From Indolivaga capnocytophagoides DSM 22835 (lineage in GTDB: Bacteria > Bacteroidota > Bacteroidia > Bacteroidales > Dysgonomonadaceae), in NCBI RefSeq assembly GCF_000426485.1, contig NZ_AUFL01000009.1, positions 1 to 64,000 on the forward strand: 64,000 bases of DNA, in the 5' to 3' direction. The translations under genes and the position numbers were made by a program. The first letter of the stretch is position 1, and every line of letters begins with the position of its first letter. The notes beneath the pieces were generated by a model, which was given only the letters and a program-made list of their open reading frames with translations, was not told the origin of the DNA and did no database searches. Below, piece after piece: positions 26,737-39,218 of this stretch.

Positions 26737-27138
26737 TTACTCAAATTTATTTAATGTAATCTCTTTACTCTTGCAAAGGGGACAGCTCTTTCCACCTATA
26801 TTTTTTAGAGTAAATATAATTTCGCATTTATCACACGTGTACCATTCTGCAATCAAGCTATCTCCTCCCTCATAAGTAATCGGTAAGCCTTCAATGAATG
26901 CCCGTGCAATTTTAGATCGAACACTTTCATAAATACGGGTAAATGTAGGGCGTGAGATATTCATTAATTCTGCCGCTTCTGCTTGAGTCAAATGTTCATA
27001 GTCACATAACTTGAGAGCCTCGTATTCTTCAATATTTATCATGACTTTACTACGTTTTTCGTTAAGTACTCCGAATGGCTTGAATCCTCCAAAACAAGGA
27101 GCCATCTGGACTAGTCTCTTTTTCTTTATTCGAGCCAT
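26737..27138 (-). CDS. DUF134 family DNA-binding protein
   Basis: The 133-aa protein matches DUF134 (PF02001): CFGGFKPFGVLN, MINIEEYEALKLCDYEHLTQAEAAELMNISRPTFTRIYESVRSKIA. The middle is a sigma-70-region-4-like HTH, and the C-terminus adds a zinc ribbon (CDKCEI...CPLCKS). Members lie beside NifX-like genes in many anaerobes and are presumed metal-responsive regulators. It is the first gene of the three-gene unit and may regulate it from the palindrome at 27188-27199. Confidence 0.82.
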   Translation of the reverse strand: MARIKKKRLVQMAPCFGGFKPFGVLNEKRSKVMINIEEYEALKLCDYEHLTQAEAAELMNISRPTFTRIYESVRSKIARAFIEGLPITYEGGDSLIAEWYTCDKCEIIFTLKNIGGKSCPLCKSKEITLNKFE

Positions 27139-27169: not shown

Positions 27170-27204
27170 CAAAGATAATATTATTATGAACATATGTTCG
27201 TAAT
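27170..27204 (-). promoter_or_regulatory. Promoter and palindromic site of the DUF134-NifX operon
   Basis: TATCTTTG on the minus strand (27177-27170) is a perfect -7 box. In the -33 region the perfect palindrome GAACATATGTTC (27188-27199), flanked by ATTA and TAAT, takes the place of a TTG element, as expected of an activator or repressor site. DUF134 is the natural candidate to bind it; this is inference. Confidence 0.6.
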
Positions 27205-27229: not shown

Positions 27230-27298
27230 ATTTTCCTGTGGAAATTTGTTTCTTTGGAAAATATTATTTTCCTTTGCTGTATATTTCCAATGGAAAAT
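27230..27298 (+). promoter_or_regulatory. Efflux-operon promoter with three MarR-like palindromes
   Basis: TTTG (27245-27248), 20 nt, and TTCCTTTG (27269-27276) make a promoter with start near 27283. Three palindromes surround it: ATTTTCC-tgt-GGAAATT (27230-27246), GGAAAATATTATTTTCC in the spacer (27256-27272), and ATTTCCAATGGAAAAT (27283-27298) at the start point. The last one has the same distance from an identical TTCCTTTG box as the operator in front of the marR gene at 39159. Confidence 0.7.
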
Positions 27299-27320: not shown

Positions 27321-28640
27321 ATGATAAAAATGAAAAGAGCGATAATTATTACATTAAGTGTGATTTGGCTTGGCTTCTCTATCCAGGCGCAAAATTCACC
27401 ATACATCACCGTTGATAAAGCTGTAGAAATAGCAGTGAAAAATAACAGTAATGTGAAAATGTCCGATTTAGATGGCAAAGTAGCGAATGCAAATTATCAT
27501 CAAACAGATGCCGTATTCCTTCCTCAAATTACGGTAGGGTATACTGCTTTAAGTACCAATAATCCATTGAATGCATTTGGCTTTTTGCTACAACAAGAAT
27601 CTGTTACAGCTATGGATTTCGATCCTGCCAAGCTAAACAATCCGGGAGCCAGCCAAAATTACAGTACGCAGGTAGAGGCTAAGCTACCATTGCTGAATAT
27701 GGACATGATTTATGCACGGAAAGGGGCAAAAGCTAACGAAGAAGTCTATAGACATAAGGTCGAACGAACTAAAGAATATATTGAGTTTGAAGTGCGAAAA
27801 GCATATACTCAATTACAAATGTCGTATCAGGCTCGAAACATTCTTCAAAAATCATTAGATGATGTGAAACAAATACATCAATCAGTTTCCAATTTTTATA
27901 ATCAAGGATTAGTTCAAAAATCGGATGTGTTGAATGCTCAGGTACAGGTGAATACGATTGAGGCAGCCCTGGCAAAAGCTGAAAGTAATATACATAATGC
28001 TTCCGACGGGCTACGGCTTTTGATGGGACAGGATGCTAACGATGAAGTGTATACAACAGATTCCTTGTCCCAACAGATGAGCCTGTATCAAGCCGCTGAA
28101 CTTTCATCTTTTCGTTCCGATATAATGGCGTTAAACAAGGCTGTGAATGCAACTGATATGATGGTAAAATCGTCACAAATGGCATTCCTGCCACGTATCA
28201 ATGCTTTCGGTTCGTATGGACTGAATGATTCTAAAGCCTTCAAATTCCGTAATGATTCTTATTTGGTAGGTATAAATCTAAGCTGGACAATATTTTCCGG
28301 CAATCAGAATCGGAGTAAGATGAAGTCTGCACAATTTCAACGTGATAAAATGCAAGAAGAGCTCAATCTGCACATCAAAAAAGAAGAACTGGAGCTAAAT
28401 AAAACTAAGCGAGATCTGACCGATTTGCAAATAGAGATAAACAAGCAAAATACAAGTGTAGGGCAAGCCGACGAAGCCTTACGTATTCTAACCAATCGCC
28501 ATCATGAAGGTTTAGCCAGCACCACTGACCTGTTGATGGCTCAAGCGCAACTTTCGCAACAGAAACTCCTGCTATCACAGTCCATCATGTCATATAATAT
28601 CACAGAGGCATACCTCAATTTTTTATCAAAGACGAAATAA
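27321..28640 (+). CDS. TolC-family outer-membrane efflux protein
   Basis: The 439-aa protein (an alternative ATG lies at 27330) has a signal peptide ending near IQAQ. Paired long helical coiled-coil regions with repeated motifs (LRLLMGQ, RHHEGLASTTDLLMAQAQLSQ, and VNFF-type SVSNFYNQGLVQKSDVLNAQVQV) define the TolC trimeric outer-membrane channel family. It is the first gene of a TolC-adaptor-RND operon and lies 38 bp from the predicted transcription start. The pump's substrate is not evident from this subunit. Confidence 0.88.
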   Translation: MIKMKRAIIITLSVIWLGFSIQAQNSPYITVDKAVEIAVKNNSNVKMSDLDGKVANANYHQTDAVFLPQITVGYTALSTNNPLNAFGFLLQQESVTAMDFDPAKLNNPGASQNYSTQVEAKLPLLNMDMIYARKGAKANEEVYRHKVERTKEYIEFEVRKAYTQLQMSYQARNILQKSLDDVKQIHQSVSNFYNQGLVQKSDVLNAQVQVNTIEAALAKAESNIHNASDGLRLLMGQDANDEVYTTDSLSQQMSLYQAAELSSFRSDIMALNKAVNATDMMVKSSQMAFLPRINAFGSYGLNDSKAFKFRNDSYLVGINLSWTIFSGNQNRSKMKSAQFQRDKMQEELNLHIKKEELELNKTKRDLTDLQIEINKQNTSVGQADEALRILTNRHHEGLASTTDLLMAQAQLSQQKLLLSQSIMSYNITEAYLNFLSKTK

Positions 28641-28662: not shown

Positions 28663-29745
28663 ATGAAAACTTTAAGAAATGTATTTTTAGTAATAGTAGG
28701 TATCTCGGCTTTCTATTCCTGCTCTTCATCCAACAAGCCCGAGGATAAAGATAGAACCATAGTGAAAGTCGAAGTTTACACTCCAACTCAGTCATCTAAC
28801 GAAGGCTTTTATCTTAGTGGTGAGGTCACAGCCAAGCAAACGGCCAATATCAGCACTCGTATGATGGGTTATATAACCAAAATATATGTGAAACCAGGCG
28901 ACAAAGTAGCGTCAGGGCAACTCCTCGTATCTATTAGCAGCGATGATATTCTGGCAAAAAAAGCACAGGTACAGGCTATGATTACCGAAGCTGAAGCCGC
29001 GTCAAAGAATGCGCAGCGTGATTATGAGCGTTTCAAAACACTGCGCAGCCAAAACAGTGTATCAGACAAGGAACTCGAAGATGTGTCTTTGCAAAACACA
29101 TCGATGAATGCGAAAGTGCAGATGGCTCGCCAGCAGATGAACGAAATAAATGCAATGCTTTCCTACACCAATATACGCGCACCATTCTCGGGAGTGGTAA
29201 CACAAAAAATGCTGGACGAAGGCAGTATGGCAAACCCAGGAATGCCTATTCTGACGATTGAGCAGAGTGGCGAATTACAAATCGTAGCATCCATTCCCGA
29301 AAACTATATACCGTATGTCAAAATAGGAGATGTTGCCAAAATAGAGTTGAAATCATTAGGCACAACTATTGATGGAAAAGTATCGGAGCTTAGTCCGTCG
29401 GCATTCCGTACAGGGGGACAATATTCGATGAAGTTAGCTATCGACGCAAAAGATAAAACTAATATCCGCTCCGGCATGTATGTCAATATTTTGATACCGA
29501 ATAAAACAGGAGAGGATATCTCTTCTAAAATTATGTTGGATAAAAACTCAATTGTTTATCGTGACCAACTGACAGGAGTATATGTAATAGACGATCAGAA
29601 TCAAGCTAATCTTCGCTGGATACGTTTAGGTAAGACAATCGGCAATCAGGTAGAAGTACTTTCCGGCTTGAGCCAAAATGACAGAATTGTATCTAAAGCC
29701 GAAGGCAAATTATATAACGGAGTAAAAGTATCTGTAAATAAGTAA
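28663..29745 (+). CDS. RND efflux periplasmic adaptor (HlyD/MFP lipoprotein)
   Basis: The 360-aa protein has a signal with lipobox AFYSC (Cys20). A barrel-sandwich half-motif GYITKIYVKPGDKVASGQLLVSI and its partner YTNIRAPFSGVVTQKMLDEGSM flank a hairpin of about 90 helical residues; beta-barrel and membrane-proximal domains follow. This is the standard membrane fusion protein. It lies 22 bp after the tolC gene and 4 bp before the permease gene. Confidence 0.9.
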   Translation: MKTLRNVFLVIVGISAFYSCSSSNKPEDKDRTIVKVEVYTPTQSSNEGFYLSGEVTAKQTANISTRMMGYITKIYVKPGDKVASGQLLVSISSDDILAKKAQVQAMITEAEAASKNAQRDYERFKTLRSQNSVSDKELEDVSLQNTSMNAKVQMARQQMNEINAMLSYTNIRAPFSGVVTQKMLDEGSMANPGMPILTIEQSGELQIVASIPENYIPYVKIGDVAKIELKSLGTTIDGKVSELSPSAFRTGGQYSMKLAIDAKDKTNIRSGMYVNILIPNKTGEDISSKIMLDKNSIVYRDQLTGVYVIDDQNQANLRWIRLGKTIGNQVEVLSGLSQNDRIVSKAEGKLYNGVKVSVNK

Positions 29746-29749
29746 AATT

Positions 29750-32700
29750 ATGGAAAACGGAATTTCAGGAAAAATAGCCGGAGCGTTTATCAAGTCAAAA
29801 TTGAGTATCCTGCTCATGTTTGCCTTTATGCTCTTAGGACTGTTCAGCATATATTTCATTCCGCGCGAAGAAGAGCCTCAAATAGAAGTCCCTATGGCGG
29901 ATATTATGATTGGTTATCCCGGGGCAACACCTCAGGAAGTAGAATCGGGAGTAATACAACCTATCGAAAAGATCATTTCGAATATCAAAGGGGTAGAGCA
30001 TGTATATTCTACCTCTATGAATGGTATGGGTATGCTTACTGTACAATTCTTTGTGGGTGAAGATGTCGAGCGTTCGTTGGTTAAGCTCTACAATGAGATG
30101 ATGAAGAATATGGATCGTATGCCACAAGGCGCAACTATGCCTTTGGTGAAATCGCGAGCCATAGACGATGTTCCTGCATTAGCTTTCACTCTTTGGAGTG
30201 ATAAGATGGGCGATTATCAGATACGTCAGGTAGCAGAAGTGGTTGGCAACGAAATAAAGAAAATACCGGATGTAGCACAAGTCAATGTTGTAGGAGGACA
30301 GAGCCGTCAGGTAAAGGTCATGCTCGATAAGGATAAAATGGCACAGAGTAAACTAGACTTTGGAGCTATAACCCAAACTCTACAAGCGAACAATGCCCAA
30401 ATGCAAAGCGGAAATATCGTAACAGGCGATATGGTTTATTCAGTGCAAACAGGCAATTTTTTTACCAATGTGGAAGAAGTGAAAAATCTGATTGTCGGAA
30501 CAAATGATAATCAACCGGTCTATCTGTATCAAATCGCAGAAGTAGAAGACGGCCCCGAAGTCCCTAAACAATATGTTTCGTTTGGATATGGTGCTGCGTC
30601 GGGCGATAAAAAAGCGGATATGCCCGATGACTATTCTGCCGTAACTATTTCCATTGCTAAGAAAAAAGGTGCAGACGCCATGAAGCTGGCAGAGGTAGTG
30701 ATCAACAAAGTAGAGCATCTGAAAAAAGATGTTATCACTAATGATATACATGTTGACGTTACCCGTAACTACGGAGAAACGGCATCACATAAAGTATCCG
30801 AATTGCTTTTTCACTTGTCTATTGCCATTGTGGTAGTAACCCTGTTTGTGATGTTGGCAATGGGCTGGCGTGGCGGATTGGTAGTATTTCTTTCCGTGCC
30901 TGTAACGTTTGCCCTGACTCTTTTTGCTTATTACTTCTTGGGATATACACTCAATCGTATTACACTGTTTGCTTTGGTGTTTGTTACAGGTATTGTTGTG
31001 GATGACTCCATTGTGATTGCGGAAAATATGCACCGTCACTTCAAGATGAAGAAACTACCACCGTTACAAGCTGCGCTATATGCTATCAATGAGGTAGGGA
31101 ATCCGACTATCTTGGCAACGCTGACTGTTATCGCTGCCGTACTGCCCATGGCATTCGTATCGGGAATGATGGGTCCATATATGAGTCCGATGCCTATAGG
31201 TGCATCCATAGCCATGATTTTCTCTTTACTGGTAGCTCTGACATTGACTCCATATTTCGGCTATTTATTCTTAAGACATAAAGATAAAAAAGGAGAAGAA
31301 CACGAAAGTGAAGAAAAAGAAACAGATTTGCACGAAACGAAAATATACAAATTATATGCTAAAATAGTAACACCGTTTTTGGAAAGCAGAAAACGCCGCT
31401 GGACATTTATGATTGGCTTAACTGTCGTTTTACTAGGATCGTTTGTGTTGTTTTATACAAAATCTGTTCCGGTAAAAATGTTGCCTTTCGACAATAAGAA
31501 TGAATTTCAAGTAGTGATAGATATGCCGGAGGGAACGACATTGGAACGTACTGCCGCCGTAGCTAAAGAATTAGCTGTGTATATCAGTCGGAATGATAAG
31601 GTAACGAATTATCAAACTTATGTGGGAACATCCGCTCCTATCAGCTTTAACGGGTTGGTTCGCCATTATGATATGCGCATGGGTGATAATGTGGCCGATA
31701 TACAAGTCAACCTTGTTGATAAAGGAGAACGTAGTGAACAGAGTCATGATATAGCTACATCAGTGCGTGCCGATTTGCAAGCTATCGGTAAAAAATACAA
31801 TGCCAATGTAAAAGTGGTGGAAGTTCCTCCGGGTCCTCCTGTCATGTCTACCATTGCAGCCGAAGTATATGGCCCTGACTATGAACAACAAATAGCTGTA
31901 GCCAAACAGGTGAAAGATCTGTTGGCGCAAACTGACAATGTAGTCGATGTGGATTGGTCGGTAGAAGATGCTCAGACCGAATATAAATTTGAGGTGGATA
32001 AAGACAAAGCGATGAAATTGGGCATTCCGAATGCGCAAGTGGTTCAGAATATGAGAGCGGCTTTGTCGGGTATGTCCGTGGGTGTGTTGCATCAACCTGC
32101 GTCTGTCAATCAAGTTGGTATTATCCTTCAATTTCCTGAAAAAGAGAAATCTACTATTGAAGATGTATTAAGCCTAAAAGTGGTGAGTCAACAAGGAATG
32201 GCTATTCCTGTAGGCGATTTAGTGAAGGTTACAAAAGGAGAAAAAGAAAAGAGTATTCATCGCAAAGATCAGAAGCGTGTAGTGTATATATTAACCGAAG
32301 TTGCAGGAAGTTTGGAAAGTCCGATATATCCTATTACGGAAGTGTCTGATAGATTATCGCAGGTAAAACTTCCCGAAGGATATACTTTGTCGGAAGAATA
32401 TAGTGAGCAACCAAAATATGAAGACAACTTTTCCTTAAAGTGGGATGGCGAATGGCAGATAACATATGAGGTATTCCGTGATTTGGGGCTGGCTTTTCTA
32501 TTTGTACTGATCATTATCTATGTGCTGATTGTGGCTTGGTTTCAAAACTTTATTACACCCTTGGTACAATTGGCAGCTATACCGTTATCCTTGATTGGTA
32601 TCATATTCGGGCATTGGATTATGGGAGCTTACTTTAGTGCTCCGTCAATGATTGGGTTTATAGCTCTTGCCGGAATCATGGTGCGAAATTCGGTATTACT

Positions 32701-32950
32701 TATCGACTTTATCGACATACGGCTCAAAGACGGCATCCCGTTGAAACAGGCTGTTATCGAAGCAGGGGCTGTACGTACAACGCCTATAGTTTTGACAGCA
32801 GGAGGTGTAGTTCTGGGGGCTATTGTAATTCTGTTCGATCCTATATTTCAAGGTCTGGCAATCTCGCTGATGGGAGGAACAATAACCTCTACCGTACTTA
32901 CATTGATTGTAGTACCACTACTGTATTATAAAATGTTGAAAAGAAAGTAA
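29750..32950 (+). CDS. RND-family efflux permease (AcrB-like)
   Basis: The 1066-aa inner-membrane proton/drug antiporter has an N-terminal helix (SILLMFAFMLLGLFSIYFIPREEEPQ) and two duplicated halves with large periplasmic loops. TM4 has the proton-relay aspartates in GIVVDDSIVIAEN, typical of hydrophobe/amphiphile rather than heavy-metal RND pumps (which carry a different TM4 motif). The second half ends SMIGFIALAGIMVRNSVLLIDFI and GGVVLGAIVILFDPIFQGLA. Length is normal for the family. Substrate unknown; the MarR-type operators and redox-thiol genes nearby suggest response to an electrophile or sulfur stress. Confidence 0.9.
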   Translation: MENGISGKIAGAFIKSKLSILLMFAFMLLGLFSIYFIPREEEPQIEVPMADIMIGYPGATPQEVESGVIQPIEKIISNIKGVEHVYSTSMNGMGMLTVQFFVGEDVERSLVKLYNEMMKNMDRMPQGATMPLVKSRAIDDVPALAFTLWSDKMGDYQIRQVAEVVGNEIKKIPDVAQVNVVGGQSRQVKVMLDKDKMAQSKLDFGAITQTLQANNAQMQSGNIVTGDMVYSVQTGNFFTNVEEVKNLIVGTNDNQPVYLYQIAEVEDGPEVPKQYVSFGYGAASGDKKADMPDDYSAVTISIAKKKGADAMKLAEVVINKVEHLKKDVITNDIHVDVTRNYGETASHKVSELLFHLSIAIVVVTLFVMLAMGWRGGLVVFLSVPVTFALTLFAYYFLGYTLNRITLFALVFVTGIVVDDSIVIAENMHRHFKMKKLPPLQAALYAINEVGNPTILATLTVIAAVLPMAFVSGMMGPYMSPMPIGASIAMIFSLLVALTLTPYFGYLFLRHKDKKGEEHESEEKETDLHETKIYKLYAKIVTPFLESRKRRWTFMIGLTVVLLGSFVLFYTKSVPVKMLPFDNKNEFQVVIDMPEGTTLERTAAVAKELAVYISRNDKVTNYQTYVGTSAPISFNGLVRHYDMRMGDNVADIQVNLVDKGERSEQSHDIATSVRADLQAIGKKYNANVKVVEVPPGPPVMSTIAAEVYGPDYEQQIAVAKQVKDLLAQTDNVVDVDWSVEDAQTEYKFEVDKDKAMKLGIPNAQVVQNMRAALSGMSVGVLHQPASVNQVGIILQFPEKEKSTIEDVLSLKVVSQQGMAIPVGDLVKVTKGEKEKSIHRKDQKRVVYILTEVAGSLESPIYPITEVSDRLSQVKLPEGYTLSEEYSEQPKYEDNFSLKWDGEWQITYEVFRDLGLAFLFVLIIIYVLIVAWFQNFITPLVQLAAIPLSLIGIIFGHWIMGAYFSAPSMIGFIALAGIMVRNSVLLIDFIDIRLKDGIPLKQAVIEAGAVRTTPIVLTAGGVVLGAIVILFDPIFQGLAISLMGGTITSTVLTLIVVPLLYYKMLKRK

Positions 32951-32951
32951 A

Positions 32952-33269
32952 ATGATTATGAAGCTATTAGTTGTATTAAGTATAAAAGAGTATCAGGAGC
33001 AGGTAGCAAGCCTACTCCAAGATGCCGGAGTGAAACGATTCAGTGTGACCAATATCACTGGCTATAAAAAGAAAGAGGAAAATTTGGGCTGGTTTGCGGC
33101 TAATGCGAGCAATGCTAAAACAAACTCTATAATGCTTTTCAGCTTTGTGACAAAAGAAATTGCTGATAATGCTATTACAGAGATTGACAGTTGTAATATT
33201 GAAACGAATAATCCTTTTCCTGTACATGCTTTTGTCCTTGATGTAGAAAACTTCTCTAAATTGATTTGA
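32952..33269 (+). CDS. Small PII-like protein linked to efflux operon
   Basis: The 105-aa protein starts MIMKLLVVLSIKEYQEQVASLLQDAG (a second ATG at 32958) and alternates strands and helices as in ferredoxin-like PII/DUF3240-type proteins that accompany RND pumps. The end reads NPFPVHAFVLDVENF. It begins 2 bp after the permease stop and its own end overlaps the next gene. Family recognition is by pattern only; a ligand or regulatory role for the pump is inferred. Confidence 0.55.
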   Translation: MIMKLLVVLSIKEYQEQVASLLQDAGVKRFSVTNITGYKKKEENLGWFAANASNAKTNSIMLFSFVTKEIADNAITEIDSCNIETNNPFPVHAFVLDVENFSKLI

Positions 33270-33528: not shown

Positions 33529-34443
33529 ATGAAAACAATATTTTATATAATAATCGTATTGTTTATCCTCATTATACACATACCCAGGGTCTACTCACAA
33601 GAAAATACGATCTTACAGGTAGATAGTATTTCACTTCGGAATAACTATCTGAATGAGATGCAGTCAATAAATGTATTGAAACATAGACCGATTGAAGTTT
33701 CAGAAGACCTTGTAAGGTCTGTACTAGACAAGCAGGCTCCTTTTGCGGTGTATAAGGATAATTATATGGTAACGGGAATCCCTTTAAACAAATCGGTAAC
33801 CCGTAAAACAGCGGATGCATTCTTCCAGTTTAGTATTCGCCACAGAGTTACCAGAAGCGTCTTGCCATTCAATTCGTTTTTGTACATTATTTATTCTCAA
33901 AAGTCATTCTGGGATATTTATGACAAATCGAGCCCTTTCCGCGATACGAATTACAATCCCGGAATAGGAGTCGGACGCTACATTATCAAAAACAACAAAC
34001 TGAAAGGAGCGGTAATGGTTTCTCTGGAACATGAATCGAATGGAAAAGCAGGAGAAGATTCTCGTAGTTGGAACTATCTGAATCTGTCAGCCAAATATTT
34101 CTATAATATGCGCTTATCGGCTAAAGCTCAAGTGTATCTACCTTATGTGGATGGAGGTAATAATAAAGATTTGTTACGTTATAAAGGTTATGGTATCTTT
34201 TCGGTTAATTATATTGATAGTAAAAATTTATGGTGGTTCAGTCTTAATATAATCCCATGGGATCAGTTTATAAACCCTAATTTACACACATCTTTATCAT
34301 TTAGAGTATCGAAAAATTCAAATCAATACTTAACTTTGGATTATTATGCCGGTTATGGAGAAGGGTTGCTGAATTACAAAAAATATACAAATCAGGTAAG
34401 AATAGGATTTACGATAAAACCGGATTTCTTCAGTGCATATTAA
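33529..34443 (+). CDS. pldA: Outer-membrane phospholipase A (OMPLA-like)
   Basis: The 304-aa protein from ATG 33529 has a signal sequence ending near RVYSQ. The beta-barrel phospholipase A motifs are clear: YSQKSFWDIYDKSSPFRDTNY, and HESNGK with catalytic His168 and Ser170 (counted from this start), then GYGIFSVNY. The fold hydrolyses phospholipids in the outer leaflet when lipid asymmetry is lost. It follows the terminator of the efflux operon directly. A TTG start at 33511 inside the terminator was rejected. Confidence 0.85.
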   Translation: MKTIFYIIIVLFILIIHIPRVYSQENTILQVDSISLRNNYLNEMQSINVLKHRPIEVSEDLVRSVLDKQAPFAVYKDNYMVTGIPLNKSVTRKTADAFFQFSIRHRVTRSVLPFNSFLYIIYSQKSFWDIYDKSSPFRDTNYNPGIGVGRYIIKNNKLKGAVMVSLEHESNGKAGEDSRSWNYLNLSAKYFYNMRLSAKAQVYLPYVDGGNNKDLLRYKGYGIFSVNYIDSKNLWWFSLNIIPWDQFINPNLHTSLSFRVSKNSNQYLTLDYYAGYGEGLLNYKKYTNQVRIGFTIKPDFFSAY

Positions 34444-34453
34444 CAAAAAATGA

Positions 34454-34941
34454 ATGACTATGAATAATAAATGGGACGAAAGTTACAATATGGAAGAATA
34501 CCGCTATGGAGAAGCTCCAAATCTATTCTTCAAGCAAATCATCGATACGCTTCCAACAGGAAAAATTCTTCTTCCGGCTGATGGAGAGGGACGGAATGGT
34601 GTATATGCAACAACAAGGGGATGGAGTGTAGACGCTTTCGACCAAAGCCAGCAAGCTAAAGAAAAAGCCTTGCGTTTGGCCAAAAGAATAGCGTGAATAT
34701 TTCATTCAAAGTGATTGATTTCGAAGATATCTCTGAAAATTATATTGTCGACTCCTATGATGTAATTGCTCTTACCTATGTTCACCTACCGGAACAATTA
34801 AAAGAGAAATATCACAGGTCGTTATTGCCTTTGTTGAAAACCGGAGGGCATATTATTATTGAAGGATTCGGTAAAGAACATGTAAAACATCAGCAACAAA
34901 ACCCATTAGCCGGAGGTCCGCCATATGTGGATATGATGTAA
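34454..34941 (+). pseudogene. SAM-dependent methyltransferase, frameshifted and truncated
   Basis: The two frames join into one TehB-like methyltransferase. The first, from ATG 34454, runs YRYGEAPNLFFKQIIDTLPTGKILLPADGEGRNGVYATTRGW..., with motif I as LLPADGEGRNG, and breaks at about 34693. The second, starting with VNISFKVIDFEDI, continues with DSYDVIALTYVHLP and LLKTGGHIIIEGFGKEH. The second frame ends at VDMM, well before the normal C-terminus. Two lesions make it a pseudogene. It lies 10 bp after pldA. Confidence 0.75.
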
Positions 34942-35326
34942 TGGAATAATTCGCTTGAACACAGAAGGATGTAGTGAACCTATAGAAACTTTATTATCCT
35001 CAGATTAATTATCATATGAAGCCCAAAAGAGTAACCTAAATTCCTTTAAGAAAACTGAATTATATATTGGCTATATTTCGGATCAACTCCGCTTAAATAA
35101 GGTATCTACCGAATAAGTAGATTTTAAAGAAGAAAAAACAATATTGTTTTCAATGTATTCAAGACTTTTACAAAGATAATAAAATTTGCCTAACCTATGA
35201 AATTACACGGAAATTAGATCTTTTATCCAAAATCTAACTTACTAATACGTAGTGGTTCTTGTTGCGTATTTGCAACTTGTTTTATAGTAGAAAAAAGAGA
35301 GAACAAATCGTCAATAGATAAAAATT
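34942..35326. other. 385-bp gap after the broken methyltransferase
   Basis: This probably contains decayed methyltransferase sequence at its left side (a short frame LNTEGCSEPIETLLSSD is visible). A weak hairpin GTTGC/GCAAC lies near 35255-35275. Nothing else was supported. Confidence 0.4.
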
Positions 35327-35704
35327 TTATCTTTTTATAATAGATTCTAGTGTTTGAGGTATATCAAACTCAGCACATTTTATCGATTCAAGTTTCTTCT
35401 TGCCCAGATCAGTCAAAGCAAAATACATCTGGCGCTTATCCTCCTTACCTACAATACGTCTGATAAGCCCTTTCTTTTCGACCGATTTTATCACTTTCGA
35501 TGTATTCGAATTGCTCAATCCCAATACACTAGCCAATTCATTGGATGAATATTTCTGAGCATTCAGCGAACATAGCAGCATCCCTTCGTTCAGTCCAAGA
35601 TCATATAATTGCTGAAAGTTTAACTCAAAGTCATAAATAGCCCGATACACATCCCTGATCTGGCATAATGTTCTTACTTGCGAATTCTTTGTATTGTCTG
35701 CCAT
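35327..35704 (-). CDS. MarR-family regulator (first of two paralogs)
   Basis: The 125-aa protein has a winged-helix MarR fold: SSNELASVLGLSNSNTSKVIKSVEKKGLIRRIVGKEDKRQMYFALT. The last strand-turn GKEDKRQMYF is the wing. It shares clear sequence with the protein at 38800-39159, so the two are paralogs. It has Cys residues in the dimer helix (LCQIR, LLCSL) that could sense redox or persulfide state. It is the last gene of the rhodanese-DUF2892-thioredoxin operon, which it may regulate. Confidence 0.82.
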   Translation of the reverse strand: MADNTKNSQVRTLCQIRDVYRAIYDFELNFQQLYDLGLNEGMLLCSLNAQKYSSNELASVLGLSNSNTSKVIKSVEKKGLIRRIVGKEDKRQMYFALTDLGKKKLESIKCAEFDIPQTLESIIKR

Positions 35705-35728: not shown

Positions 35729-36199
35729 TTACTCTTTTAATAAAAGATTATCAATAGCCTCCTTCAGTTGCTGTTTTGGTAATGCTCCTGCACCCATTTG
35801 AGGTTGTCCGGTCATCGGAACAAACAGTAAAGAAGGTATGCTTCTTATCCCAAACGCAGACGCTAGTTCAGGTTCAGTTTCCGTATTTATCTTATAAATA
35901 TATATACGACCTCCGTATTCTGCGGCCAATTCATCCAGCACCGGAGCTATAGCTTTACAAGGGCCACACCAATCAGCATAGAAATCAATCAATGCCGGTT
36001 TATCCCCTAAATATTTCCATTCAGTAGGATTTGTTTCAAAATTAGCAACTTTTGACAAGAATTCTGCTTTTGTTAAATGTATTGTTGTCATTTTATCTTC
36101 TTTTTTAATTGTTTCTTTTGTTTGACTTTTTGTCTCAGCTGTGTTATTACAAGAAATAAGCAATAATGCCACAAGTGGAAGTAGTATTGTATACTTCAT
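35729..36199 (-). CDS. Thioredoxin-like lipoprotein (WCGPC)
   Basis: The 156-aa protein has a lipoprotein signal (LLLISC, Cys17). After a Lys/Thr-rich linker the thioredoxin domain covers about 45-156 with WCGPC (Cys78, Cys81) in FYADWCGPCKAIAPVLDEL and the cis-Pro motif RSIPSLLFV. It should be tethered in the periplasm, unlike cytoplasmic TrxA. Its operon partners (rhodanese, DUF2892) point to sulfur or thiol redox chemistry. Confidence 0.88.
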   Translation of the reverse strand: MKYTILLPLVALLLISCNNTAETKSQTKETIKKEDKMTTIHLTKAEFLSKVANFETNPTEWKYLGDKPALIDFYADWCGPCKAIAPVLDELAAEYGGRIYIYKINTETEPELASAFGIRSIPSLLFVPMTGQPQMGAGALPKQQLKEAIDNLLLKE

Positions 36200-36201
36200 T
36201 T

Positions 36202-36450
36202 TTAATCCGGTTTATATTTTTTTATCTGATCTCCATAAATATTTTCTTTGTACTTATTGTCTGTATAGCACCCTGCGGAGCCACAACAGGAAATATTCAT
36301 AATTGCCTGAAAAAGTAGCAATCCACCTAAAACTAAAAACATATAATCCTTCGTAGATATTGAATAGATAGCTATCAACACTCCCAACAATAAACGAATT
36401 ATCCGGGCTGCATCCCATTTCTTTAATATGCGTTTCATTCTGTTACTCAT
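36202..36450 (-). CDS. DUF2892-like small membrane protein
   Basis: The 82-aa protein from the ATG at 36450 opens MSNRMKRILKKWDAARIIRLLLGVL, has two hydrophobic helices, and has a Cys cluster ISCCGSAGC in the loop, as in YgaP-like proteins. A longer frame to 36474 lies within the rhodanese gene and was rejected. It overlaps the rhodanese stop by 8 nt and sits 2 bp from the thioredoxin gene. A role in membrane-associated sulfur transfer is inferred. Confidence 0.7.
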   Translation of the reverse strand: MSNRMKRILKKWDAARIIRLLLGVLIAIYSISTKDYMFLVLGGLLLFQAIMNISCCGSAGCYTDNKYKENIYGDQIKKYKPD

Positions 36451-36961
36451 TAAAATTAAACCAGCTTCCGCCATTATATACTTTCTGAAAACCTTTATTC
36501 TTTAAGAGAGTCACCGCACTGCGACTACGCATACCACTGGCGCATATAGCAATAATCGGTTTATCTTTTTTTAGTTTCGATAAATTACTATTCAAACTAT
36601 CCAGAGGAATATTGACTGAGTTTGTTGCTGCTCCCTGTTTATATTCTTCTTTTGTTCGGACATCCAGAAGTATAGCTCCATTCTCTAAGAGAACTTTAAA
36701 ATCAGCTTTGTCCTCCAATCCGAGTAATCTGCTAAGAAATCCCGCCATATTATTTATTTTATTTTTGTTTTTTTTATTTCTTTTAAAAATTCCTCCGAAT
36801 AAGCCTCCCAATAAAACTCCGTATAGAGTACTGATTGTAGGTGATGACGTTATGGGACAAGTACCGGTACTACATCCAATATACCTCCAATACATATATC
36901 CACCTATTGCTCCGATAAGTGCTCCTAAGAGATATGTCCAATTGTTTTTTATTATTTGCAT
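36443..36961 (-). CDS. DUF6132-type membrane segment fused to a rhodanese domain
   Basis: The 172-aa protein has an N-terminal membrane part (about 1-60: WTYLLGALIGAIGGYMYWRYIGC, GTCPITSSPTISTLYGVLLGG) that resembles the DUF6132 family. A Lys/Asn linker leads to a rhodanese domain (about 72-172) starting MAGFLSRLLGL and with active-site CASGMRS (Cys140). In related genomes, as I recall, the two parts are separate genes, so this is a fusion or a lost stop. It is the first gene of the operon and would carry sulfane sulfur at the cytoplasmic face. Confidence 0.75.
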   Translation of the reverse strand: MQIIKNNWTYLLGALIGAIGGYMYWRYIGCSTGTCPITSSPTISTLYGVLLGGLFGGIFKRNKKNKNKINNMAGFLSRLLGLEDKADFKVLLENGAILLDVRTKEEYKQGAATNSVNIPLDSLNSNLSKLKKDKPIIAICASGMRSRSAVTLLKNKGFQKVYNGGSWFNFNE

Positions 36962-36985: not shown

Positions 36986-37034
36986 CAAAGATAATATATT
37001 ATTTCCATTAGAATATAGTTCCATAAGAAATAAT
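36986..37034 (-). promoter_or_regulatory. Promoter and operator dyad of the rhodanese operon
   Basis: TATCTTTG on the minus strand (36993-36986) is a perfect -7 box. Behind it an inverted repeat runs from ATTATTTC (36998-37005) to GAAATAAT (37027-37034), enclosing two TTCCAnnAGAA-like half sites. No TTG sits at the -33 position, so the dyad probably binds a regulator. The motif resembles the MarR operators listed at 27230 and 39167 but is not identical. Confidence 0.55.
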
Positions 37035-37087: not shown

Positions 37088-38749
37088 TTATAAAGAGTAT
37101 TCTGCTATTGCTGTTGCATAGGTTGTATAACCTCCTGACAGATTTAGAACATTAGAAAATCCATATTGTGCTAATATCCGCGAAGCAATATACCCGCGTA
37201 AGCCGACAGCACAATAGATTAAAACGTCCTTCTCTTTTGGTATTTCTTTAATCCGGGAACGCAGTTCATCCAGGGGGATGTTCATCGCACCCTTGATATA
37301 TCCTTCGCTGCATTCTTCTGAAGTACGGACATCTAACAGGGTCGTTTTGGCGAGATTTATTTTTCCAATATCCCGCCATTGGGCTACTTTCATCTTTCCT
37401 TTAAGAATATTATCAGCTACAAAACCAGCCATATTGACAGGGTCTTTAGCCGATGAATAAGGCGGGGCATATGCATGCTCAATATCCATCAGATCGTAAA
37501 TTGTACCTCCTTTTTTTATAACCTCAGAAAACAACTCAATTCTTTTGTCGGCTCCTTCTTTTCCTACAACCTGAGCTCCCAAAAGCTTTCCATTCAAGGG
37601 GGAGAAATTAACCTTTACTGACAATTGAGATGCTCCGGGATAGTATCCCGCGTGTGAACTTCCATGAGTAAAAGATGATATATGCTCAATACACTCCCTG
37701 TTCAGCACTTTGGATGAAAGTCCTGTCGCCGCAACGGTTAGGTCAAACACCTTAGCTATAGATGTGCCGATAGTTCCCGGGTAGATATATTTGTTATCCT
37801 CCAGTATGTTATCTGCAACAATACGGGCTTGTTTATTGGCCGGACCCGCCAAAGGAATCAACATCTGTTTAGTTATTACCGGATTCAGTACTTCCACGGC
37901 ATCACCCAAGGCATAGATATTGTTATCACTCGTCTGCATATAACTATTAACTTTAATCCCTCCTGTCGTTCCAAGTTCCAGCCCTGCATCTTTTACAATC
38001 TTAATATCGGGACGAACACCAATACTGAAAATAACCATATCGGAGATAAGTTCTCTACCGCTTTCCAATACTATTCTAACGCCGTTTTCTTCTTCGAGGA
38101 AAGAAGTCACTCCTTCTTTCAGATAAAGCTCTACTCCTTTCTGCCTAAGTTGCTGATGAACTATTGCGGCCATGGAAAAATCAATTGGAGCCATAACCTG
38201 ATCCGCCTTCTCCACTAACTGTACTTCAAGTCCTGCATTATGTAAATTTTCTACCATTTCCAGTCCGATAAATCCTCCGCCGATGACAACTGCTTTTTGG
38301 GGTTTATGAGTTATAAGAAAGTTTTTGATTTTATCGGTATCAGGTACATTACGGAGTGTAAATATCTTTCTGCTATCGATGCCTTTGATTGGAGGTTTCA
38401 CCGGTTCTGATCCGGTAGATAGAATAAGTTTGTCATAAGATTCAGTATATTCTTTATTTGTGATAAGGTTTTGTATGGTTATACTTTTATTTTCCCTATT
38501 GATACAGATTACTTCCTGCAATACCCTGATGTCTATCTTGAATCGCTTAGAAAATCCATCTACAGTTTGGACGAAAAGATTATCTCTGTCCGCTATTGTA
38601 CCTCCGATATAATATGGTAATCCACAATTGGCATAAGAAATATATTCGCCTCTTTCAAATAAAATAATTTCAGCCTGTTCATCCATTCTCCTTAAACGGG
38701 CTGCAACAGATGCTCCCCCGGCAACTCCTCCTACAATTAATATTTTCAT
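37088..38749 (-). CDS. CoA-disulfide reductase with C-terminal rhodanese domain (CoADR-Rhd)
   Basis: The 553-aa FAD/NAD(P)H-dependent reductase begins MKILIVGGVAGGASVAARLRR. Its redox Cys42 lies in YANCGLPYYIGG, and a second Rossmann motif KAVVIGGGFIGLEMVENL is near 155-170. The C-terminal 100 residues are a rhodanese domain with CAVGLRG. This class reduces CoA persulfide or disulfides in sulfur-handling anaerobes. It lies 50 bp after the second marR gene on the same strand, so the two are probably cotranscribed. Confidence 0.9.
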   Translation of the reverse strand: MKILIVGGVAGGASVAARLRRMDEQAEIILFERGEYISYANCGLPYYIGGTIADRDNLFVQTVDGFSKRFKIDIRVLQEVICINRENKSITIQNLITNKEYTESYDKLILSTGSEPVKPPIKGIDSRKIFTLRNVPDTDKIKNFLITHKPQKAVVIGGGFIGLEMVENLHNAGLEVQLVEKADQVMAPIDFSMAAIVHQQLRQKGVELYLKEGVTSFLEEENGVRIVLESGRELISDMVIFSIGVRPDIKIVKDAGLELGTTGGIKVNSYMQTSDNNIYALGDAVEVLNPVITKQMLIPLAGPANKQARIVADNILEDNKYIYPGTIGTSIAKVFDLTVAATGLSSKVLNRECIEHISSFTHGSSHAGYYPGASQLSVKVNFSPLNGKLLGAQVVGKEGADKRIELFSEVIKKGGTIYDLMDIEHAYAPPYSSAKDPVNMAGFVADNILKGKMKVAQWRDIGKINLAKTTLLDVRTSEECSEGYIKGAMNIPLDELRSRIKEIPKEKDVLIYCAVGLRGYIASRILAQYGFSNVLNLSGGYTTYATAIAEYSL

Positions 38750-38799: not shown

Positions 38800-39159
38800 T
38801 TAGTCCATAAACTTAGCCAATGACTTAATAAGTTCTCTATATTCACCTTCAGATCTCTGTATTTCTTTCTTTTTCTCCAGTCCCTTTTCCGTTAATGAAA
38901 AAAGCATCTGCCTTTTATCGGCTTGTCCCATTGTCCTTATAATATATTCCTGCTGCTCTAAGCTACTCAGAATTTTAGATGTCCGGGAGTTCGATACGTC
39001 AAGCTGGCCGGACATATAACCCGCACAGGAGCTTCTTGTTTCGGGCAAAGAATATATAATAATAGCTTCATTTAATGTGATGCCATTGTTTTCTAAAAAC
39101 ACTTTTTCGAGTCTATAAAGTATTTTCTGTATATTCTTTATTTTTGTAATTATGCACAT
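38800..39159 (-). CDS. MarR-family regulator (second paralog, probably autoregulated)
   Basis: The 119-aa protein starts MCIITKIKNIQKI and has a winged helix DVSNSRTSKILSSLEQQEYIIRTMGQADKRQMLFSLTEKG. It contains Cys2 and a Cys in SSCAGYM, candidate sensors. An operator overlaps the predicted start point of its own promoter, and the same operator-promoter spacing is present at the efflux operon 12 kb away. It therefore probably represses itself, the reductase gene and the efflux genes. Confidence 0.82.
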   Translation of the reverse strand: MCIITKIKNIQKILYRLEKVFLENNGITLNEAIIIYSLPETRSSCAGYMSGQLDVSNSRTSKILSSLEQQEYIIRTMGQADKRQMLFSLTEKGLEKKKEIQRSEGEYRELIKSLAKFMD

Positions 39160-39166
39160 ATATTAT

Positions 39167-39218
39167 AATTCCACTGGAAATAATAAACAAAGGAAATAAA
39201 TATTTTAAGATTAGCAAA
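39167..39218 (-). promoter_or_regulatory. Promoter and operator of the marR-CoADR operon
   Basis: TTTG (39218-39215), 19 nt, and TTCCTTTG (39195-39188) on the minus strand make the promoter. After 6 nt comes the palindrome ATTTCCAGTGGAAT-like (39184-39167), directly before the ATG at 39159. Box, spacing and palindrome align with those of the efflux operon at 27269-27298. Confidence 0.7.

Follow-up and report, generated by a model that had tools for sequence, protein, structure and literature searches.

The window analyzed here, a stretch of 64,000 nucleotides from Indolivaga capnocytophagoides DSM 22835, contains three units of genes with related promoters. The first is an efflux operon on the plus strand, which begins with a gene for a tolC-type outer membrane efflux protein (27321-28640, Pfam OEP) and continues with genes for an HlyD-type membrane fusion protein (28663-29745, Pfam HlyD_D23), an RND permease (29750-32950, NCBIfam RND_permease_2, under the curated cut-off) and a P-II-like small protein (32952-33269, Pfam P-II at the cut-off, 25 vs 25 bits). 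The second unit, on the minus strand, encodes MarR1 (38800-39159), a MarR-type protein without the two cysteines common to the other MarRs, and a CoA-disulfide reductase-type protein with a C-terminal rhodanese domain (CoADR, 37088-38749, Pfam and NCBIfam). The third, also on the minus strand, encodes a rhodanese-domain protein found by family search (36443-36961), a thioredoxin (35729-36199, NCBIfam TIGR01068, over the cut-off) and a second MarR-type protein, MarR2 (35327-35704). With 125 amino acids and a Pfam MarR score of 36 bits (cut-off 24.6), MarR2 has the size (about 120 amino acids) and the family match of a winged helix MarR protein. The labels MarR1, MarR2, CoADR, TolC, HlyD, RND, P-II, DUF134, FeMo-Co, DoxDA, rhodanese and thioredoxin come from family searches, while the genes labeled DUF90, DUF2892, PLA, MT, DUF389, TrkA/H, NhaA, BCCT, porin and int are what we take them to be from our own reading. 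A remnant of a gene that we labeled methyltransferase-like, its frame broken, was also observed at 34459-34950, and a similar gene precedes MarR1 in genome G023 (locus L058).

Promoter elements and operator sites

The sequence TTCCTTTG is found on the plus strand at 27269-27276, ahead of tolC, and is followed after 6 nt by ATTTCCAATGGAAAAT (27283-27298). The same box is found on the minus strand ahead of MarR1 (39195-39188), followed after 6 nt by ATTTCCAGTGGAAT (39181-39168). The match of box, spacing and palindrome on which the original prediction was built is thus real, as the window has exactly two copies of TTCCTTTG-N6-ATTTCCA, ahead of these two genes. With up to three mismatches, the joint pattern gave 15 window matches for 4.59 expected. 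When TTTG was added (TTTG-N18..21-TNNNTTTG-N5..7-TTTCCNNNGGAA, a composite designed post hoc, after the sites were known), the tolC and MarR1 sites were the sole window matches and none was observed in 60 Markov windows (3.84 Mb).

The most plausible role for the box is that of a -7 element in a Bacteroidales promoter. In the available text of PMC7366714 and PMC4747536, the consensus for the Bacteroides sigma-ABfr is TAnnTTTG at -7 with TTTG near -33. Ahead of tolC, the putative -33 TTTG (27245-27248) lies 20 nt from the putative -7 box, and ahead of MarR1 the corresponding TTTG (39215-39218, minus strand) lies 19 nt from the box at 39188-39195; each box has one mismatch to the consensus, TT for TA. 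Both promoters would therefore have the same -33 and -7 elements as the sigma-ABfr promoters described in the accessible part of PMC7366714. The third promoter, ahead of the rhodanese, thioredoxin and MarR2 genes, has a perfect -7 box (TATCTTTG, 36986-36993, minus strand) but no TTTG at -33. We also considered TTCCTTTG as part of a regulator signature, a half-site in its own right, and rejected it: the box agrees with the -7 consensus, and similar boxes occur in promoters of the sister clade whose palindromes are different. Indeed, the sister (core) MarR genes, including C10:126779 in this genome, mostly have such a box and, after it, another element that ends in TAGCAAATA. Because the core genes combine the same box with another element, the box and its fixed spacing represent a promoter followed by an operator at the start site, and what the sites share beyond a promoter lies in the palindrome and its position. 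The TTTCC within the TTCCTTTG box, 16 bp from that of the downstream operator, might still add weak contacts.

The palindrome of this operator is TTTCC-N3-GGAAA, a putative binding site. The tolC promoter has an exact copy, O1 (TTTCCTGTGGAAA, 27232-27244), upstream of and abutting the -33 element; an imperfect copy with two mismatches, O2 (27248-27260), between -33 and -7 and 16 bp from O1; and O3 (TTTCCAATGGAAA, 27284-27296), immediately downstream of the -7 box and near the putative transcription start. Two palindromes in addition to O3 had been reported at this promoter; the one at 27232-27244 is indeed an exact copy, whereas the one at 27248-27260 is only an imperfect one. Ahead of MarR1 and CoADR, the operator TTTCCAGTGGAAT (39168-39180) is kept as TTTCCATTGGAAT in L059 and as TTTCCGTTGGAAT in L070. 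A third promoter, overlooked until now, has two imperfect copies with two mismatches each, TTTCTTATGGAAC (37018-37030) and ATTCTAATGGAAA (37002-37014), 16 bp apart and ahead of the rhodanese, thioredoxin and MarR2 genes.

We then looked at the whole genome (4,377,988 bases), where TTTCCNNNGGAAA occurs in seven places, two of which are 52 bp apart ahead of tolC. A motif search of this kind had been expected to define the regulon. Outside the window, exact TTTCCANNGGAA and TTTCCNNNGGAAA occurred in 13 and 5 places (the sets overlap), all within ORFs except C12:100067 (L014), located 122 nt ahead of a 168-aa frame, and these places yielded no further clear regulon member. When the promoter part of the pattern alone was compared, C7:71932 was a third place that fitted.

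Conservation of the operators in related genomes

The arrangement O1, -33, O2, -7, O3 was kept in all nine promoters compared, each with [T/C]TTG-N20-TNNNTTTG. These promoters came from eight genomes (the window, G023, the second copy in G059, G101 twice, G010, G106, G112 and G303) and precede tolC or a single gene of this set that lies apart. Imperfect copies among the nine include the O3 of G112, the O3 of the separated G101 gene and the O2 of G010. The separated gene, tentatively labeled PLA (33529-34443 in the window), lies apart from tolC in G101 (L103, around 3188). As these operators also stand in a promoter of its own there, the operator appears to go with this gene when it is outside the efflux operon.

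The spacing of O1 and O3 was also used to scan 393 genomes. The pair TTTCCNNNGGAA-N38..42-TTTCCNNNGGAA was found in 8 of them and its reversed control in none (0/393). Four genomes had the match at tolC promoters (G000, G010, G023, G303) and three at CoADR(-TusA-DsrE) promoters with MarR2 downstream (G280, G369, G448). In G298, a repeat family present in several places (e.g., C3:53561) matched the pair pattern with other sequence in between. The layout with operators flanking the -7 element can hence serve as a search pattern, which in 393 genomes found only the same kinds of operon and one repeat family. Conservation in relatives lends good support to the proposal that a single regulator is common to the tolC and MarR1 promoters.

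To place the two MarR proteins, we used a 62-row tree in which a MarR2 clade (30 rows) was separated from a clade of core genes and MarR1 (32 rows) with support of 100/99. MarR1 appeared as a long branch beside the core genes, in a tree where several inner forks were weak and long branches were flagged. TTTCC-N3-GGAAA was the commonest 5-base palindrome (gaps 0-8) upstream of MarR2-type loci (7/23), and its exact form was absent downstream of the same loci (0/23) and from the sister (core) loci (0/27), the MarR2, MarR1 and core labels in this count and in the tree being set by the recognition-helix motif and thus not independent of the tree. Locus L116 is classed as "other" by this motif and groups with MarR2 in the tree, and L044 was dropped before the count as a duplicate of L119. 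Outside the family of the window, the exact palindrome was found upstream of 6 of 16 MarR2-type loci and downstream of none (0/16). With one mismatch allowed and the clade list following the tree, sites were present upstream of 18 of 29 MarR2-clade loci and downstream of 2, compared with 7 and 5, respectively, of 27 core-clade loci. The remaining 11 of the 29 MarR2-clade loci had no site with one mismatch or fewer in the 1.4 kb examined, some promoters being further upstream. Eight core-clade sites were listed for the seven loci, and four of these are a -7 box running into CAAA or TAAA. Locus L141, deep in the sister (core) clade, also has a TTTCC-like promoter, suggesting that the TTTCC specificity may predate the MarR2 clade.

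A matrix built from 23 sites of other families ranked 27284 (23.1 bits), 27232 (22.2), 37002 (16.9) and 39168 (15.7) as the four best sites of the window; its training sites were chosen by the palindrome itself, so these ranks test the place of the sites and not the existence of the motif. In 30 Markov windows, no site scored above 20.0 with the same matrix, and 11 matched or exceeded the fourth score (15.7). The sites at 37002 and 39168 are therefore supported more by their place than by their score.

Candidate regulators

Operators at tolC were found in ten genomes (G000, G010, G023, G042, G048, G059, G101, G106, G112 and G303), and MarR2 is present in all ten. Since the operator tracks MarR2, both in these genomes and in MarR2-clade operons of many families, MarR2 is more likely to be the regulator than MarR1. 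Cysteines 14 and 45 are the candidate sensor thiols of MarR2: both are invariant in 29 of 29 MarR2-clade and 27 of 27 core proteins (56/56 together) and absent in all three MarR1 proteins, a pattern consistent with MarR2 having a thiol switch and MarR1 lacking one. Gene order links MarR2 with the efflux genes as well. In G010, G101 and G303, tolC and the rhodanese-MarR2 genes point away from each other, and in G158 (L156) a single row holds genes for rhodanese, a small protein like that of window 36202-36474, thioredoxin, TolC, HlyD, RND, P-II-like and MarR2, with the only exact palindrome seen at this locus located between thioredoxin and TolC. We therefore consider it probable that a BmoR-like MarR repressor uses the shared element as its operator in three units, with MarR2 as main regulator and a thiol switch. 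The imperfect copies at the promoter of the MarR2 unit itself count against this view. Under this reading, MarR1 would primarily be a target and possibly a second regulator.

A role for both proteins deserves the most attention among the alternatives, although we judge it rather unlikely. Here, MarR1 and MarR2 would bind the same palindromes, MarR2 being thiol-responsive and the cysteine-less MarR1 repressing as well, either as a second layer or constitutively, so as to damp the response or set its timing. The palindrome is kept at the promoter of MarR1 itself in three diverged copies (the window, L059 and L070), the efflux operon of G023 ends with MarR1, and the TTTCC-like promoter of L141 suggests a specificity that MarR1 could retain. 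However, the nearest sister clade of MarR1 in the family of the window uses the other, TAGCAAATA-like element, and the sites persist where MarR1 is absent.

This last observation also weighs against MarR1 as sole regulator, which was the choice of the original prediction and which now appears very unlikely. MarR proteins are often autoregulated, and MarR1 adjoins one of the two sites first noticed; its position within the efflux operon of G023 would also suit such a role. Yet MarR1 is not present wherever the operator is. It is intact in five of the ten genomes (G000, G023, G042, G048, G059), broken in G106 and absent from G010, G101, G112 and G303, for which completeness was estimated at 99, 100, 81 and 99%, respectively, i.e., at least 99% for three of the four. 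In G303, the best match to MarR1 was MarR2 itself and the sole other match was weak (E 5.5e-4). Because tolC operators persist in genomes without MarR1, it is not expected to be the only regulator. Moreover, MarR2-clade loci of other families have kept the operator, and five genomes searched from other families had no MarR1 match closer than MarR2 itself. At L206 (G106:C11) and L071, taken as one locus given the same broken MarR1 and counted once, the rhodanese, thioredoxin and MarR2 genes remain, and a full CoADR was not found beside the broken gene. MarR1 seems dispensable from this locus.

A further candidate is the DUF134 regulator (26737-27138), whose gene is divergent from tolC and adjoins its promoter, and whose product has a weak sigma-70 region 4-like match under the cut-off. 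Its use of O1 to O3 is highly improbable and was rejected, as we found no DUF134 in six stretches that carry these operators (L058, L102, L104, L105, L107 and L159). A better candidate for its site is the perfect palindrome GAACATATGTTC at 27188-27199, between DUF134 and tolC, which was present in the three loci examined with DUF134 (the window, L060 and L205) and in none of six tolC loci without it. This palindrome is possibly the DUF134 operator. Lastly, a chance likeness of AT-rich promoters having only the -7 element in common would account for the box, a promoter element expected at many genes, but the rarity of the sites, the layout conserved across families and the reversed control without a match in 393 genomes leave it a negligible probability.

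A proposed BmoR-like repressor and its regulon

MarR2 resembles the regulator BmoR of Bacteroides fragilis (Teixeira et al., 2018). According to the available text of that study (PMC6158253), BmoR binds the BF638R_0572-bmoR promoter in gel shift assays and represses it; this promoter has one site with TTTCC-containing inverted repeats, and BF638R_0572 encodes a CoADR-rhodanese-TusA-DsrE protein. As far as this text goes, both are short MarR proteins, and MarR2 would also share the TTTCC inverted-repeat operator, a CoADR/rhodanese target and a link with thioredoxin and thiol balance. In three MarR2-clade loci (L152, L153, L160), proteins of 838, 815 and 814 aa have the same domain order as BF638R_0572, and the MarR gene comes directly after it in L152 and L153, whereas rhodanese-like and thioredoxin genes intervene in L160. 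MarR2 is thus inferred to be BmoR-like because of the TTTCC operator and this gene order in relatives.

The two systems also differ. The accessible part of PMC6158253 describes one inverted-repeat site at the BmoR operon, whereas we see two or three around each promoter, and the efflux targets suggested by the sites at the RND operon have no counterpart among the targets reported there. In contrast to the BmoR operon, the MarR2 gene of the window follows the rhodanese and thioredoxin genes, the CoADR-rhodanese protein lacks TusA and DsrE, and three genes lie between CoADR and MarR2. Efflux control by a MarR protein that senses sulfane sulfur through cysteines is described, in the portions available of PMC11211675, PMC8614764 and PMC9495516, for MexR with MexAB-OprM in Pseudomonas aeruginosa and for MarR in E. 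coli, the latter having a TTGCC half-site as quoted in PMC6158253. Those proteins belong to another lineage, and for MarR2 sulfane-sulfur sensing would be an extension by analogy. Our sequence searches of the PDB returned only distant MarR proteins, and our literature searches found no paper linking MarR, Bacteroides, and RND efflux with rhodanese or TolC.

What the sequence itself shows is the sites, the layout of the promoters, how these are conserved and their association with the MarR2 clade; from this we infer binding, repression, a cysteine switch and a signal as follows. Dimers of MarR2 would occupy the TTTCC-N3-GGAAA palindromes around a sigma-ABfr-type promoter. With O1 and O2 covering the -33 region and O3 at the transcription start, RNA polymerase would be blocked, and the placing of the sites fits repression of this kind. 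Oxidation or persulfidation of Cys14 and Cys45 would make MarR2 release the DNA, leading to joint induction of the tolC-HlyD-RND efflux genes, of MarR1 with CoADR/rhodanese, and of the rhodanese, thioredoxin and MarR2 genes. Given these target genes, the signal would be sought first among thiol oxidants and persulfide. The case for MarR2 as repressor of all three promoters combines its Pfam match, the tree, the conservation of the operators and the cysteines. Taken together, the sites are real and conserved, and appear to represent a known kind of redox MarR operator extended to an RND efflux operon.

Such a reading points to a testable regulator and a set of targets within a group of redox MarR proteins for which we found BmoR as the studied example. 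It also connects RND efflux in Bacteroidales, through this operon, with thiol stress and persulfide stress. If it is correct, these anaerobes may switch on efflux pumps under sulfur or oxygen stress even when no drug is present. A bolder version, which we offer as speculative and unlikely in full, is a persulfide-stress regulon of Bacteroidales that moves horizontally. In it, a BmoR-like MarR would sense sulfane sulfur and induce the RND pump along with the persulfide reductase, rhodanese and thioredoxin genes, the pump would serve sulfur and thiol detoxification, and the cysteine-less MarR1, itself controlled through that operator, would be a second-layer repressor.

Recent horizontal transfer of the region around 23035-48098 is itself suggested by its relatives. 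Much of it, including an integrase-like gene and DoxDA, has 98-100% protein identity in G042, and large parts are also present in G048 and G059. Because these three genomes are classed in another genus, such identity would reflect a recent transfer. Genome G059 also has a second copy, which has diverged.
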